Assembly: GCF_014230055.1 (NCBI RefSeq)
Contig: NZ_JACHVA010000139.1
Coordinates: forward strand, 1 to 64,000
Source: Puniceicoccus vermicola
Lineage (GTDB): Bacteria > Verrucomicrobiota > Verrucomicrobiia > Opitutales > Puniceicoccaceae
Length of the DNA stretch: 64,000 bases
Reading direction: 5' to 3'
Shown here in pieces: positions 36,526 to 56,903 of the stretch (the first letter of the stretch is position 1; every line of letters begins with the position of its first letter). Below the pieces are notes generated by a model that was given only the letters and a program-made list of their open reading frames with translations, did not search any database and was not told where the DNA came from. Made by a program: the position numbers and the translations under genes.

Positions 36526-37518
36526 TCAGATGAAGTACTCGATGTAGGCTTTCTCACGAAGCCGCTGAAGCCAATTTTCCTGGGCTTCACGAGCGATCTG
36601 GTCGGAAAGCATTTCTTCAATCGTGCCTCGGACTTCTGCGAGAGGAATTGGGCCGGGCTCGCGGATCTTTTCGACGTAGAAAAAGAAAATGCTCTTCTGA
36701 AAAGAGACCGGATCACTGACCGCGCCTTCCGGAAGGGCGAAAACGACATCACTGAGTTCGCGGCGGAGGTCCGAGCTGCCAACCCACCCGAGGCTACCCC
36801 CACGGCGGGCCAGGCCGTCCATGCTCATCTTCCGGGCGACCTCTTGGAAAGAGGTGCCATCGGCGAGCATTTCTTCCACGGTGGCGGTCTTCTCCTCTAC
36901 CGTTTCTCCCTCACTGCTGGGAGTCAGGGAGATTTGGAAGAGTTTGACCTCCTTGCCCCGTTGGAATTGCGCCTGGTTCTCCTCGTAAAATTCTTTGATC
37001 ATCTGCGGGCTGATCTCGGCCTGATTGCGTCGCATCTGCTGTTTCATCACCTGCACGATGATTTTGTCTTTCAGATCATCGCGAAAATCACGCACCGTTT
37101 GGTCCTGACTACGCAGGTAGGTGAGGAAGCGGTCCCGTTCGCCGTTGAAGTCTTCTTGGATCACATCGTTGAACTCACCCTCAATGTAGGATTTCGGAAT
37201 CGTCATCCCCTTGGTGTGGAAATTCTCCACGATCAGAATCTGGTCGATCAGGTTTTGCAGCACATCCCGTTGCAGGCGGTTCAGGTTGGCGTTGTATTCC
37301 TGCTCGTTTGAAGAAATGCGGGAGACCTGCCGGAGGAGGGGCTCCATCTCGCGGCGAACTTGCTCAAAGGTGATGATTTTCCCCTCAACCTTGGCGGCGA
37401 TCGCGTTGGGGCGATCGGGTTCCCACATCTGGTCGACGCTTTCCTGAGCGGAAAGAATCGAGCCTGCGAGGAAAAGAATCAGGCCGATAGGCCGAAGAAA
37501 AAGGTGGTGGAGGTTCAT
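36526..37518 (-). CDS. SurA-like periplasmic peptidyl-prolyl isomerase
   Basis: A 330 aa exported foldase. It has a signal peptide at about 1-24 and a SurA-type N-terminal chaperone domain at about 35-170 (AIAAKVEGKIITFEQVRREM, ALQNLIDQ-type helices). A single parvulin domain lies at about 185-295 (EVKLFQISLTP, SMDGLARRGGSLGWVGSSDL, FQKSIFFFYVEKI). It should help outer membrane proteins fold. Its ATG overlaps the mfd stop by four bases, so it is cotranslated with a DNA repair gene. A second parvulin domain, present in E. coli SurA, is absent. Confidence 0.87.
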   Translation of the reverse strand: MNLHHLFLRPIGLILFLAGSILSAQESVDQMWEPDRPNAIAAKVEGKIITFEQVRREMEPLLRQVSRISSNEQEYNANLNRLQRDVLQNLIDQILIVENFHTKGMTIPKSYIEGEFNDVIQEDFNGERDRFLTYLRSQDQTVRDFRDDLKDKIIVQVMKQQMRRNQAEISPQMIKEFYEENQAQFQRGKEVKLFQISLTPSSEGETVEEKTATVEEMLADGTSFQEVARKMSMDGLARRGGSLGWVGSSDLRRELSDVVFALPEGAVSDPVSFQKSIFFFYVEKIREPGPIPLAEVRGTIEEMLSDQIAREAQENWLQRLREKAYIEYFI

Positions 37519-40500
37519 AGACGCGCAATCATCCTAGTGATTTCTGCCAATCTGGAAAGGGGCTTTTTCTGGGTCAAGCGGGGAAAGCGCGATCCGATTT
37601 TTACGTAGCTCCCTTCCTTCCCGGTTCTTTTGAGCCGGAGAAGGGGTCCTTCGGTCGCGACAGAGGCGATTTGGTGATACTCGGCTTCGAGGCGAATCCG
37701 GGTGACGGCGAGGAGAATCTTCACGGATTCGGGCATTTTGCCGAAGCGGTCGGCGATCTCCTTTTCGATCCGGTCCATCTCTTCCCGGTTCGAAACGAGT
37801 CCGAGGCGACGGTAGAGGTCGACGCGGATGCGTGACTCGGGAATATACTCGCCCGGGATCTCGGCGGCCACGGTTTTGATGCGGCCAGAGTCCACGGCCT
37901 CTTTGCGGAAAACTTCGAACCGGGCTTCTCCGACGGGCCTTGCCCGCACTCCACCCATACCGCGGTTGATGAAATCGAGCCGCACCTCGGCCCGGACGTG
38001 GGAAGCCGTGACCTCTCCTTTGAGCCGAGCGATGCTCTGGCGGAGCAATTGGCAGTAGAGGTCGAAGCCGACTCCCGCGATTTCTCCACTCTGTTCGGAG
38101 CCGATCAAATTCCCGGCTCCGCGAAGCTCCAAATCTTTCATCGCAATCCGGTAGCCGGCTCCAAGCTGGTTGTATTGGCGGATGGCCGACAACCGTTTGC
38201 GGGCCGATTCGAGGACGCCGGTGTGGCGGTGGAGGAGGAGATAGGCGTAGGCTTGCCGATTGAATCGTCCTACGCGGCCTCGCAACTGGTAGAGTTGGGA
38301 GAGTCCAAACCGGTCGGCCCCCTCGATGATCATCGTATTGCAGTTCGGGATATCCAGTCCGGACTCGATAATGGTGGTGCAGAGGAGGAGGTCGTAGCGT
38401 CCGGCGACAAACTCGGTCATTACCTGCTCAAGTTCGCCTTCTTCCATCTGCCCGTGCCCGACGGCGATCCGGAGGCGCGGAAACATAGCGCTGAGTTTTT
38501 TTTCGACGGCGCGAATCGTTTTCACCCGGTTGTGCAGGTAAAAGACTTGGCCGCCGCGGCTGATTTCCTGATCGACGGCCGAACGGATGAGACCCTCGGA
38601 ATAGGGGTGCACCATGGTCTCGACCGGAAGTCGATCGCGGGGTGGGGTTTCGATCACACTCAGATCGCGGGCGCCGGCGAGGGCGAGGTAGAGTGTGCGG
38701 GGGATCGGGGTCGCACTCATGCTGAGTACGTCGACGTGGGTGCGCATCCGCTTGAGCTCCTCTTTCTGTCGGACTCCGAAACGATGCTCCTCATCGATGA
38801 CGAGAAGGCCGAGGTCTTTGAACTTTACCGATTTACTCAGCAAGCTGTGAGTTCCGACGACCACGTCGATGCGTCCATGCTTCAATTGCTGCCGGATACG
38901 TTTCTGTTCGCTTGGAGTGCGGAAGCGGCTGAGCATTTCCACACTGAGTGGGAAATCGGCGAATCGGTCGCGAAAGCTCTGAAAATGTTGCTGGCACAGA
39001 ACCGTGGTCGGCACGAGGAGGGCCGCTTGCTTCCCATCCATCACCGCTTTGAAAATGGCGCGGATGGCCACCTCGGTTTTGCCGAAACCGACATCTCCGC
39101 AGACCAGGCGGTCCATCGGGCGATCTTTTTCCATGTCGCGTTTAGCGGATTGGATGGCGGCCAGCTGGTCGGGAGTCTCTCGAAAAGGGAAGGAGGACTC
39201 GAAGTCTGTCTGCCACGGGGTGTCTTCGGCGAAGGCGTGGCCAGGGGTGGTGACTCGCTTTGCTTGGATCTCGAGGAGCTGGGCCGCGAGGTCGAGGGTG
39301 GAATTCTCGGCAGAGCGGCGGGCCTTCTCCCAAATCCCCGATCCCGGCTTACCCAGCTTGGGAGTGGACTTACGCAGGCCGACATAGCGGGAGAGGAGGT
39401 GAGCCTCCGTCAGGGGCAGCGAGATACGAATGCCCTCGGCGAATTCGAGGGTGATGAGTTCGCGGGTTTCCCCGTCAATCTCCTTCGGGGCGATGCCGCG
39501 GAAGATACAGATCCCGTGGGTGAGGTGCACGAGGTGATCGCCCTCGACCATTTCCGAAAAATCGAGAAGGCCATCGACGGCGTTGCGGGTCGGCAGGGCC
39601 CGTTCAGAAATCTTTTCGAGGCGAGTGCGGTCACGGCCGAAGATTTCCCGGTCGGTGATGTAGAGTTCGTCGCCGGTTTCAGTTTCCCGCCAAGCGCCTT
39701 TCCGAAGATTGCCGTGGAGGATGGGAGGATCGAAGTCACGGAGGATGGCGTCCTGAGCCATCCACTCGCGGAATCGGTTCTCCTCGCTCTCTCCGGGAAG
39801 TACTAGGTGGACTTTGGCGCCTTCGGAGGCGAGTTGGGCGACTTTGTGGAGGAATCGTAGGCGGGTCGATTCCTCGTGGGCGGTGCGGTCGGCCCCGAGG
39901 AGGCCGCGGATGAGTTCGCCGCGGAGAATCTCGGGATCCTTGGTCGTGAGCGGAATATTTTCGGAGACGAGAGCCAGGGGCAGCACCGTTTCGACTTCGG
40001 ACAGGAGGAGGGCGGAATCCTTTTCCGCGCCCGGTCGCTCAAAAATGCGGGCGAGAGTGGGGGCTCCGCTTGAACTCGGTGCAGGCAGTTTCCCCTTTCC
40101 GTGGGTTGGGCGTTCTGGCTTTTCGAAAAGTATGGGGTGCTCGCGGCGAAGGGTATCGGGCTCCTCCAGAATCCAAGTGGTCGGGCGGTCGAGGTAATCG
40201 GCGAGAGCTCCGTCGGAGACTCCCTCCGCACTTCCTTGTGTCGGTCCGATCCAGACCTCCCGTAAATTTCCCTCCGAGAGCTGACTGGTGGGATCGAAGG
40301 GGCGGATGCTCTCGACCTCGTCGCCAAAGAAATCAATGCGCACCGGATGTGCGAGGCTGACCGGATAGACATCCAGCAGGTTCCCCCGAACAGCAAATTC
40401 CCCGGGCCGCTCGCAGACGGGTTCGTTGTCGTAGCCCAGTTCTTCCGAAAGTCTCCGGGCCAGTTCGGCCGGAGGAATTTCCTCCCCCGTGCGGATGGCC

Positions 40501-40892
40501 AGCCGCTGCGCCCGCAATTGGCTTCGGGGAATGACTGGGTCGAGCAGGGCGTCGGGAGTGGTGACAAAGAGGAGGTTATCCCCTTTCTTCCGGTCGAGGA
40601 GAGCTGCGAGAGCCGCAGCGCGATCCCACTCCGCCTCGACTCGGGCACCATCGCTGGCCCCCGATTCCTTGGCGAGAGGAGGGAAGGGGAGAATCCGAAA
40701 GGAAAGTCCCAGCTGATCCCGGAAAAAACTAATTTCCACGGCCCGTTGCAGGGCGGTCCGGAATTTGGGCGCGAGGAGAAAGGACTGGGTGCTCCGATGT
40801 TCTCGGAGCCAGTCCGCAGCCATCCAGCCCAGAGCGGATTCCACCACCCCGGAATAGCGATCCAGATGGCCTGGAAAATGGACCGGCTCCAT
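37515..40892 (-). CDS. mfd: Transcription-repair coupling factor
   Basis: A large SF2 translocase (1125 aa) that removes RNA polymerase stalled at DNA lesions and recruits UvrA. The order is UvrB-like domains with the [26 protein letters not shown] segment, the CarD-like RNAP-interaction domain ([17 protein letters not shown]), the helicase core with Walker [29 protein letters not shown] and [15 protein letters not shown], then QLRGRVGR and the TRCF C-terminal domain. The start [13 protein letters not shown] is the first plausible one. The region upstream is a 119 bp repeat array, so promoter and repeats lie together. Confidence 0.95.
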
Positions 40893-41009
40893 CTCCTAAG
40901 CGGGAACGGGAGAAGCCAAAAACGCAACTGGAAATGATCGATCGCCCTGAGCGAAGTAGCCGATCTTCTTGGTCAAAGTGAAAATGGCGAATAAGTAGGT
41001 CGATCCGGT

Positions 41010-41835
41010 GTCCGGCAATCCCTGGAGCGGAAGCGCGATAGCGATTTCGATGATCTTCGGCGGGAAGCGGTCTCCTCTGCGGACTCCGTTAGAAATGGCT
41101 CTCGCCATTCCTCTACGCAATGCACGGGGTCCGGCAATCCCTGGAGCGGAAGCGCGATAGCGATTTCGATGATCTTCGGCGGGAAGCGGTCTCCCCTGCG
41201 GTCTCCGTTAGAAATGGCTCTCGCCATTCCTCTCCACAATGCATGGTGTCCCGCAATCTTTGGAGCGGAAGCGCGATAGCGATTTCGATGATCTTCGGCG
41301 GGAAGCGTTCTCCCCTGTGGTTTCCGTTAGAAATGGCTTTCGCCATTCCTCTCCACAATGCACGGTGTCCGGCAATCTTTGGAGCGGAAGCGCGATAGCG
41401 ATTTCGATGATCTTCGGCGGGAAGCAGGCTCTTCTGCGGACTCCGCTAGAAATGGCTCTCGCCATTCCTCTACGCAATGCACGGGTGTCCGGCAATCTCT
41501 GGAGCGGAAGCGCGATAGCGATTTCGATGATCTTCGTACGCAATGCACGGGTGTCCGGCAATCTCTGGAGCGGAAGCGCGATAGCGATTTCGATGATCTT
41601 CGGCGGGAAGCGTTCTCCCCTGTGGTTTCCGCTAGAAATGGCTCTCGCCATTCCTCTACGCAATGCACGGGTGTCCGGCAATCTCTGGAGCGGAAGCGCG
41701 ATAGCGATTTCGATGATCTTCGGCGGGAAGCGTTCTCCCCTGTGGTTTCCGTTAGAAATGGCTTTCGCCATTCCTCTCCACAATGCACGGGGTCCGGCAA
41801 TCTCCGGAGCGGAAGCGCGATAGCGATTTCGATAG
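41010..41835. repeat. Tandem array of eight 119-120 bp units upstream of mfd
   Basis: Units start with GTCCGGCAATC or close variants at 41010, 41129, 41248, 41367, 41487, 41553, 41673 and 41792. Spacings are 119, 119, 119, 120, 66, 120 and 119. The fifth unit lacks about 54 bp of its middle, and the eighth stops after about 44 bp. Each full unit has the core GGAAGCGCGATAGCGATTTC, then TCTTCGGCGGGAAGC, and a hairpin AATGGC-TCTC-GCCATT (41094-41109 in unit 1; loop TTTC in some). Because 119 is not divisible by three, long frames on both strands change frame at each unit and are unlikely to be protein. The array fills most of the gap between mscS and mfd. Confidence 0.9.
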
Positions 41836-41847
41836 CGTCGCCGGACC

Positions 41848-41891
41848 TCAAAAAAAGAGCCCAGATCCGAGATCGACTCGGTCCGGGCTCT
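41848..41891 (-). terminator. Strong Rho-independent terminator of mscS
   Basis: On the minus strand AGAGCCC (from 41891) pairs with GGGCTCT (to 41856), with further partly paired sequence CCGGACCGAG/CTCGGATCTGG inside the loop, followed by a run of seven T. It lies about 40 bp past the mscS stop and just before the array, so it also isolates the array and mfd from mscS transcription. Confidence 0.85.
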
Positions 41892-41929
41892 GGCGAATCG
41901 CTTGGGATTCGCGCGTTTGAAATGGAGGG

Positions 41930-42790
41930 TTAAGAAGCGGCTTCTTCGGGTTCTTCCGAATTGTCCTTGATGATGTGGATATCCTGTTGCGGGAACGGGA
42001 TGGAGATTCCGTTTGCATCGAAGGCTTTCTTGAGCTTTTCGCGACTTTCGGAGAGGACGCCCCACCAGTTGGAGGGGGCTACCCAGGCGCGGGCCACCAT
42101 GTCGATGGCGCTGTCGCCGAAGTTCATGAGGGCAACGGTCACGGCCGGATCGTCGAGGACGCGCTCGTCCTTGCTCAACATATCGAGCATGATCTCGCGG
42201 GCTTGGTCGACGTCGTCGTCGTAGCTGATCGAGAACTCGATGTCCACGCGGCGGCTTGGATAAGCGTTGATGTTGGTGATGACGCTGTCGAGGAACTTGC
42301 CATTCGGGACGATCATTTGCTTTCCGTCGAAGCTCTTCATTTCGGTGGTCAGCATGTCGATGCCCACGATCACTCCGACAACCCCGCCGCCGTCGATGAC
42401 GTCACCGGTTTTGAAGGGGCGGAAGAGGAGGATCATCACGCCAGCCGCAAAGTTGGAGAGAGAGCCTTGGAGGGCGAGACCGACGGCCAAGCCGGCGGCA
42501 CCGAGAATGGCGACGACCGAGGTGGTGGGAACGCCGAGCTTACCGAGGGCGGCGACAATGACCACGGCCATCAAAAGGTAGTATAGTACGCTGGCGGCAA
42601 AGCGGCTCAGGGAAGCCTCAATGTTCCGCTTTTCGCAGACCTTGGTGAAAACGGTGCGGGCGACACCGGCGAGCCACTTTCCGACAAAAAAGATAATGGC
42701 GGCGGTGGCTAGATTGAGAGCCCATTCCGCGACCATGTTGTCGATGTTGTCCATCGTCGGCATCTGCGCCAGGGAGAGAAGTTGATTCAT
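41930..42790 (-). CDS. mscS: Small-conductance mechanosensitive channel
   Basis: A 286 aa MscS-type channel protecting against osmotic downshock. It has three membrane helices. The pore helix segment is GLAVGLALQGSLSNFAAGVMILLFRPF (short marks GLALQGSLSNFAAG). The beta domain follows with GDVIDGGGVVGVIVGID and MIVPNGKFLDSVITN, and a C-terminal alpha/beta domain ends in a Glu-rich tail. The length and glycine/alanine pore pattern match the E. coli protein. It is a single gene with its own terminator at 41848-41891. Confidence 0.95.
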   Translation of the reverse strand: MNQLLSLAQMPTMDNIDNMVAEWALNLATAAIIFFVGKWLAGVARTVFTKVCEKRNIEASLSRFAASVLYYLLMAVVIVAALGKLGVPTTSVVAILGAAGLAVGLALQGSLSNFAAGVMILLFRPFKTGDVIDGGGVVGVIVGIDMLTTEMKSFDGKQMIVPNGKFLDSVITNINAYPSRRVDIEFSISYDDDVDQAREIMLDMLSKDERVLDDPAVTVALMNFGDSAIDMVARAWVAPSNWWGVLSESREKLKKAFDANGISIPFPQQDIHIIKDNSEEPEEAAS

Positions 42791-45087: not shown

Positions 45088-45180
45088 TTTCCGCTACGCT
45101 GTCTCGCCTCTGTCGCTTGGGCTAGGAAAAAATCAAGGAGGATGCGTGGGGGGCCTGCGAAACTAGCGGAATTTGGGGGA

Positions 45181-45280
45181 GAGGAATTACGAAAGCCATT
45201 TCTAGTGGAGTCCGCAGAGGAGCCTCTTTCCTTGGGGGATTATCGAAATCGCTATCGCGCTTCCGCTTCGAGAATTGCGT
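45181..45280 (-). repeat. Solo diverged copy of the 119 bp array unit, inverted
   Basis: Read on the minus strand, this block shares with the array the core GGAAGCGCGATAGCGATTTC, then a diverged middle, CTCTGCGGACTCC, TAGAAATGGCT and ATTCCTC, in the same order and spacing. Differences concentrate in the middle and the outer end. The hairpin loop GCCATT is degraded to GTAATT. It shows that the unit is also a dispersed element and not only a local tandem. Confidence 0.85.
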
Positions 45281-56075: not shown

Positions 56076-56101
56076 CGTGGCAGCTGTCGCTCTAGCGAAT
56101 T

Positions 56102-56356
56102 TCAGAAGTGATTTTTCGTAAAAGCTCGGCCCGATCCGCTCTTCAAATATTTTTCAAAAGTCCTCGCTTTCGCTGGGTCTCGGAAACTGATGGCGGTTTC
56201 AATGAACCATGGCCGAAATTTTGCGGTGTGTGGAACTGCGCCTTGATTGTGCTTGTTCAGGCGTGCCGGTAAATCTTCGGTGCATCCGGTGTAGTGAATC
56301 TCGGAGTGGTTCTCGCTCCTAAGAATATAGACGTATGTGAATTTTGGAGCTGGCAT
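56102..56356 (-). CDS. GIY-YIG endonuclease-like protein, duplicate copy 1
   Basis: An 84 aa protein of the UvrC-like, stand-alone GIY-YIG group (COG2827). The motif is YVYILRSENHSEIHYTGCTE, where the second motif YTG replaces YIG. The Arg is in LPARLNKHN, and the catalytic Glu lies in FEKYLKSGSGRAF. Such mini-proteins are frequent in Verrucomicrobiota and often lie in repetitive DNA. The function is unclear and could be DNA repair or a solo nuclease. It ends FTKNHF where copy 2 ends FARRHF. Confidence 0.85.
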   Translation of the reverse strand: MPAPKFTYVYILRSENHSEIHYTGCTEDLPARLNKHNQGAVPHTAKFRPWFIETAISFRDPAKARTFEKYLKSGSGRAFTKNHF

Positions 56357-56464
56357 GCCAAGCCGTAGCTGAAGCCACTCTTGAAATTTCGATGCGGAAA
56401 GCCCGCCGCCGTCTTCCGGACTCTGGCGTGGCAGCCTTCGCTTGCGCTGTCGCTTTAGCGAATT

Positions 56465-56719
56465 TCAGAAGTGTCTTCTGGCGAAAGCTCGGCCCGATCC
56501 GCTCTTCAAATATTTTTCAAAAGCCCTCGCTTTCGCTAGGTCTCGGAAACTGATCGCGGTTTCAATGAACCATGGCCGAAATTTTGCGGTGTGTGGAACT
56601 GCGCCTTGATTGTGCTTGTTCAGGCGTGCCGGTAAATCTTCGGTGCATCCGGTGTAGTGAACCTCGGAGTGGTTCTCGCTCCTAAGAATATAGACGTATG
56701 TGAATTTTTGAGCTGGCAT
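56465..56719 (-). CDS. GIY-YIG endonuclease-like protein, duplicate copy 2
   Basis: An 84 aa paralogue of the gene 363 bp to the left. It shows YVYILRSENHSEVHYTGCTE and GAVPHTAKFRPWFIETAISF, and is identical to copy 1 over most of its length, with differences at the C-terminus and a few internal sites (Pro/Leu, Thr/Ala, Ile/Val). The near-identity indicates a recent tandem duplication, with drift still small. The gene faces away from tRNA-Cys, and the sequence between it and the tRNA is the REP-like end of the unit. Confidence 0.85.
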   Translation of the reverse strand: MPAQKFTYVYILRSENHSEVHYTGCTEDLPARLNKHNQGAVPHTAKFRPWFIETAISFRDLAKARAFEKYLKSGSGRAFARRHF

Positions 56720-56828
56720 GCCAAGCCGTAGCTGAAGCGACTCTTGAAATTTCGATGTGGAAAGCCCGCCGCCGTCTTCCGGACTCTGGCGTGGCAGCCT
56801 TCGCTTGCGCTGTCGCTTTAGCGAAGGC

Positions 56829-56903
56829 TGGAGGCGCGGGACGGAATCGAACCGTCGAATAGAGGATTTGCAGTCCCCGGCCTTACCACTTGGCTACCGC
56901 GCC
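56829..56903 (-). tRNA. tRNA-Cys (anticodon GCA)
   Basis: The reverse strand gives GGCGCGG...CCGCGCC with discriminator T and encoded CCA, D and T arms, and the anticodon loop CTGCAAA (GCA). Its CCA end is shared with the last bases of the REP-like flank of the duplicated GIY-YIG unit. Confidence 0.96.

Follow-up and report, generated by a model that had tools for sequence, protein, structure and literature searches.

The eight-unit repeat array between an mscS-like gene and mfd in Puniceicoccus vermicola is very probably a tandem cluster of REPINs, arranged in the style of BIME-2, which belongs to one species-specific REP family and probably has no dedicated job at mfd. It was studied in a window of 64,000 nucleotides, the whole stretch of DNA analysed (contig NZ_JACHVA010000139.1, positions 1 to 64,000). 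Coordinates of the array, of its parts and of the neighboring genes are collected in Table 1.

Table 1. Coordinates of the array, its constituent elements and related features (window positions unless a locus is named)
Feature	Position	Strand	Remarks
mfd (transcription-repair coupling factor)	37515..40892	-	TIGR00580 above cut-off; downstream neighbor of the array
Tandem REPIN/BIME-type array	41006..41839	.	8 copies in register
REP hairpin A, copy 1 of 8 identical	41024..41049	+	GGAG tag and imperfect palindrome, one G.A stem mismatch
Hairpin A, copies 2-8	starts at 41143, 41262, 41381, 41501, 41567, 41687, 41806		
Inner spacer of A>..<B pair	41050..41090	.	41 bp
REP hairpin B, copy 1 of 6	41091..41116	-	GTAG/GGAG tag and fully paired palindrome
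Hairpin B, copies 2-6	starts at 41210, 41329, 41448, 41634, 41754		unit 5 copy deleted
Inter-unit linker	41117..41142	.	26-27 bp in the array
Shortened unit 5	41483..41548	.	66 bp; most of inner spacer and hairpin B lost
Probable intrinsic terminator of the mscS-like gene	41842..41895	-	hairpin and seven U, RNA fold z -4.0
mscS-like mechanosensitive channel gene	41930..42790	-	upstream neighbor of the array
Solitary REPIN (B+ then A-), same family	45178..45268	.	between oppB-like and RNase Y genes
Candidate RAYT gene	L106 (contig C52):1336-1896		186 aa; between copies of array-family repeats

Along the array, the copies start 119, 119, 119, 120, 66, 120 and 119 bp apart, and the eighth is a 52-bp stub that ends just past hairpin A. 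The scores given by Tandem Repeats Finder (892 for a period of 119 bp, 662 for 186 bp and 552 for 120 bp) place this periodicity far beyond chance. The eight units at intervals of 119 or 120 bp that were described in the original prediction are real, as is the single unit shortened by about 54 bp. The latter is the fifth copy, which is short by 54 bp and belongs to a 66-bp exact duplication (period score 264, 100% identical); therefore, it reflects a recent rearrangement.

Each full unit consists of hairpin A on the plus strand, an inner spacer, hairpin B on the minus strand and a linker. The two hairpins, each 26 nt long, are homologous and lie in opposite orientation with their tags facing outward. 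Six full A/B pairs and two extra A hairpins are present in the array. Hairpin A reads GGAG-CGGAAGCGCGATAGCGATTTCG on the plus strand, and hairpin B reads G(T/G)AG-AGGAATGGCGA(G/A)AGCCATTTCT on the minus strand. In the original prediction, an almost invariant core was distinguished from a small AATGGC/GCCATT hairpin. The hairpin stands, but the core (GGAGCGGAAGCGCGATAGCGATTTCG) is not a separate part: it repeats the hairpin element in inverted and imperfect form, and both are one element in two orientations. Likewise, the two subtypes of unit exist: the joint variants CTACGC and CTCCAC correspond, on the opposite strand, to B tags of GTAG and GGAG, respectively. The subtypes do not alternate strictly, however, as the variable letter of the B tags is, from the first unit on, T, G, G, T, (deleted), T, G. 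The array is crossed by several ORFs of 81-285 aa in different, competing frames; because the 119-bp period rotates the frame, the non-coding nature proposed for the array is nevertheless a fair conclusion.

In DNA folding, hairpin B is paired along its whole stem (-6.4 kcal/mol, z -5.4), and the stem of hairpin A contains one G.A mismatch (-5.8 kcal/mol, z -1.5). Over 48 distinct copies, the 26-nt element has a covarying 8-bp stem and a 4-nt loop, with 94.5% of the cells paired. The covariance analysis suggested for the hairpin gave compensatory changes at three base pairs, 10-21 (U-A/C-G), 11-20 (G-C/C-G) and 12-19 (G-C/A-U). In total, 30 cells carry a double change, compared to 9.2 in shuffles (0 of 500 shuffles were as high); as these counts include shared ancestry, they strongly support the hairpin but are no tally of independent events. 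The signal is lost when the register is slid, and no slid register comes close. With a core pattern defined without the tag, GGAG or GTAG was present in the 4 nt upstream of the core in 188 of the 197 matches (GGAG in 149 and GTAG in 39). REP elements have a palindrome of ~20-50 nt after a conserved tetranucleotide, which is usually GTAG; the element conforms to this, with the variant GGAG as its main tag. At the RNA level, the fold of one array unit was no better than that of shuffled sequence (z -0.25 and -1.0), and no Rfam family was found in the array. Of the proposal that the array is a protein-binding array or an RNA with repeated hairpins, the central place of the hairpins is retained, while nothing in the analysis favors the binding or RNA role at this site.

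The array is one of many from a genome-wide REP family, located beside unrelated genes. As a blastn query, its sequence gave 72 matches in the genome. The strict core occurs there in 144 copies and in both orientations (76 on the plus and 68 on the minus strand), compared to 0 matches in the genome for a reversed control pattern. A looser pattern gave 196 matches, mostly in tandem arrays, in genome stretches picked for having matches. The neighbors of the other arrays are unrelated (arsenite efflux, a B12-dependent ribonucleotide reductase, transhydrogenase alpha-like and inositol-phosphatase-like genes), and the arrays examined are all intergenic. The family, thus, combines high copy number, dispersal and, for the arrays examined, an extragenic position, which are REP characteristics. 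Among the relatives, the strict core was encountered as two singletons in one congener and was absent from 50 others; a scan of the GTDB collection, from which near relatives may be missing, gave no match outside this genome. This search of the genome and its relatives, which was recommended together with the original prediction, leaves no ground for regarding the array as a special feature of mfd.

A transposase gene flanked by array-family repeats is present on contig C52. The genome contains 50 matches to Y1_Tnp, and a profile built from its shorter genes of RAYT type led to the C52 gene. Upstream of it, hairpins B, A, B and A are located at 1038, 1097, 1165 and 1224 of L106; downstream, an A at 1922 is followed by a B. 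This is the organization of a REPtron, a TnpA-REP gene with REPs of its own family on both sides. Judged by its sequence, the protein has the HUH motif (PDHAHF) and the single catalytic tyrosine in a Y...NP context (HYIQENPVRKG) that are expected for a RAYT. Its top NCBIfam match is NF047646, REP_Tyr_transpos (REP-associated tyrosine transposase, 1.7e-12), and its closest solved relative is the E. coli TnpA-REP 4er8 (E 0.0074), with the HUH and Y..NPV motifs aligned. The protein scores below the curated cut-offs of both NF047646 (47.4 vs. 80 bits) and Pfam PF01797, Y1_Tnp (13.8 vs. 23), so its naming as a RAYT is based on its motifs, its context and a weak homology; against NF047646, other RAYT genes of this genome reach 67-92 bits. 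In genomes G001 and G002, relatives of the C52 gene have palindromes of other families at their sides, which fits a joint divergence of transposase and repeat (PMC2817692). The C52 RAYT is probably the cognate transposase that moves the array-family repeats. A database link to known mobile DNA had been named beforehand as the finding that would give the array a conventional explanation, and such a link exists in the gene for a REP-associated tyrosine transposase that has array-family repeats on both sides.

Other candidate movers were rejected. Among the Y1_Tnp paralogues of ~320 aa, none examined has an array-family repeat within 1.2 kb, and the RAYT genes on contigs C16, C9, C80, C92, C139 and C36 have different flanking palindromes or none that could be named. 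The ~320-aa paralogues (motif YIDLNAVRA), which account for most of the 50 Y1_Tnp matches, are found at 3-518 of the window (minus strand) and at about 40 further genomic sites, among them L016, L025, L027 and L031. This copy number is unusually high for RAYT-like genes, and many of the paralogues have a TAAACCTGGTT-like stretch upstream in common. The RAYT genes at L021 (C16), L038 (C9), L057 (C80), L023 (C92) and L026 (C139) have their own flanking palindromes, several of which form tandem inverted-pair arrays; the genome is host to many REP/RAYT systems. The RAYT gene on C9 contains an in-frame TGA. Elsewhere in the window, a small 84-aa ORF, which on reading its sequence resembles a GIY-YIG nuclease domain, is tandemly duplicated (56083-56809; 363 bp, 96%). 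This duplication adjoins a tRNA gene (56832-56903), and a 71% copy is located on contig C126.

The mscS-mfd gene order is kept in G001, G002 and G003. The gap measures 253 bp in G002, where it is array-free, and 228 bp here when the array is subtracted. Both flanks of the array align with the ends of the G002 gap; its middle has diverged, and the exact insertion point can therefore not be fixed. The G003 gap, which is short, is array-free as well. The G001 gap (L173) holds a complete RAYT-like gene, between the end of mscS (~501) and the start of mfd (~1498), bounded by what reads as a different palindrome, GGAGCGGCGACTTCAGTCGCC. In the window, a terminator candidate is located between the mscS-like gene and the array, so there is no need to suppose extensive read-through into the array. 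The simple consensus scan of the region, which missed this candidate, detected no site resembling a promoter or terminator.

Two unrelated REP families, thus, occupy the mscS-mfd gap of congeners, the array here and a different REPtron in G001. This could be taken as a sign that the gap is a preferred landing site for REPs, through RAYT targeting or tolerance, with the array modulating mfd, which we consider improbable. A slightly smaller chance still is given to the array being a host regulatory element that sets the expression of mfd, either at the DNA level, by gyrase- or IHF-like binding, or at the RNA level, by termination or mRNA stability. The array is indeed bordered by the probable terminator of mscS on one side and by mfd, which has the same strand, on the other, but the simple scan came up without a promoter or terminator site, and the unit RNA fold does not exceed its shuffles. 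Gyrase and IHF are bound by the BIMEs of E. coli (PMC2817692), and the G001 gap likewise carries a REPtron; the gaps of G002 and G003, on the contrary, do without an array, and the other arrays of the family adjoin unrelated genes. The array may have a host role at mfd, although nothing in the analysis supports it, and it is probably near-neutral for the host.

The unit of spread can be recognized from the spacing of the hairpins. The inner spacing of the A>..<B pairs is 31-43 bp over 14 loci and 39-43 bp at 12 of these, and many pairs are found in tandem arrays; inverse REPs at a characteristic spacing are typical of REPINs and BIMEs, and their tandem units of BIME-2. The linkers elsewhere in the family are 11-35 bp long. 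Within arrays, mean identity is 0.85 for the spacers and 0.82 for the linkers. Between arrays, it is near random, 0.54 (vs. 0.49 shuffled) for the spacers and 0.42 (vs. 0.40 shuffled) for the linkers. As they are unrelated between loci, the linkers are probably local flanking DNA duplicated along with the element. The same repetition of spacers and linkers within the array, in a whole unit of 119 bp, agrees with the earlier view that this is not a CRISPR array, in which spacers would be unique. The solitary REPIN is identical to array unit 4 at 77 of the 93 columns aligned, spacer included, and this likeness stops at both tags, the flanks not being shared. Together with the comparison of spacings and linkers, this indicates that the inverted pair is the dispersed unit and that the tandem array takes in neighboring DNA. 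In the arrays on contigs C138 (L059) and C143 (L061), the inner spacing is 78-82 bp because a different palindrome (GTAGCGAGAGC...) is nested in the spacer. This palindrome is that of the family adjoining the C16 transposase gene. The units checked carry it in their spacers, an indication that it was inserted before the tandem amplification.

There is hardly any likelihood that the array is a purely local satellite produced by replication slippage, its likeness to the dispersed copies being due to gene conversion and not to REPIN transposition: its copies are highly alike, its unit includes local linker DNA and a recent 66-bp exact duplication is present, but many loci contain the same dimer between flanks that are unrelated, a RAYT gene lies inside one cluster, the 45178 pair has the dimer but not the flanks in common and the spacers of the C138 and C143 arrays hold a nested REP of another type.

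As a REPIN cluster, the array probably originated from a single REPIN of ~93 bp (tag-A-41 bp-B-tag) that came into the mscS-mfd gap. It would presumably have been moved by the TnpA-REP/RAYT transposase of the family, the 186-aa protein of contig C52. By analogy with the E. coli, Stenotrophomonas and Marinomonas proteins, this protein would recognize single-stranded DNA and cut near the tagged hairpin (PMC8266576). Slippage or unequal exchange would then have multiplied the REPIN and ~26 bp of adjoining DNA in head-to-tail fashion, up to eight copies, one of which would have lost 54 bp. The repeats themselves suggest this order at the locus, with one pair first, followed by amplification and by the deletion in one copy. 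Growth by tandem amplification had been proposed in the original prediction, and this view holds.

Comparable clusters are known from other bacteria. In Pseudomonas fluorescens SBW25, a REPIN cluster adjoins each RAYT (PMC3116915). Inverted REP pairs, a constant spacing and ordered clusters are common to SBW25 and the array (PMC3116915), whereas the sequence family and the phylum differ, and the tags of the array family are mostly GGAG. The largest SBW25 cluster contains four REPINs and a REP (PMC3116915), compared to six full pairs and two extra A hairpins here. Opitutus terrae (Verrucomicrobia) is highly enriched in GTAG REPs, and large clusters of GTAG REPs consist of dimers in tandem with flanking DNA (PMC3733652). 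The closest named matches of the RNase Y gene near the array, at 52-55% identity, come from Opitutaceae, Opitutales and Puniceicoccaceae, and the genome probably belongs in or close to Opitutales, Verrucomicrobiota. Compared by description, the O. terrae families GTAG-17, -19 and -20 probably come from the same phylum as the array family and share with it tagged palindromes in inverted dimers or groups (PMC3733652). However, the partners of a dimer are 1-2 bp apart in GTAG-17 and -19 (PMC3733652) and ~40 bp apart in the array family. With the E. coli BIME-2 and TnpA-REP, the array family has in common alternating inverted tandem REPs, a tag with an imperfect palindrome and one transposase gene flanked by its REPs (PMC2817692, PMC8266576). 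It differs in its shorter element, with an 8-bp stem, a 4-nt loop and a mismatch in REP A only, in its GGAG/GTAG tag and in the C52 transposase, which is only distantly related to TnpA-REP 4er8. The REP tags given in the cited papers are GTAG, GTGG and of the GYRG type, whereas the dominant tag of the array family is GGAG.

The array family is a new REP/REPIN family with a probable cognate RAYT, and it represents a known kind of selfish mobile DNA. Its departures from known REPs, the predominance of GGAG and the array size, are modest. It offers a clean, species-specific REP family and its probable cognate RAYT from a lineage that resembles Opitutales and lies outside the well-studied Proteobacteria. 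Moreover, the GGAG tag, the covariation, the nested insertions and the array-free congener sites make it a usable case for the spread of REPINs and the origin of tandem arrays.
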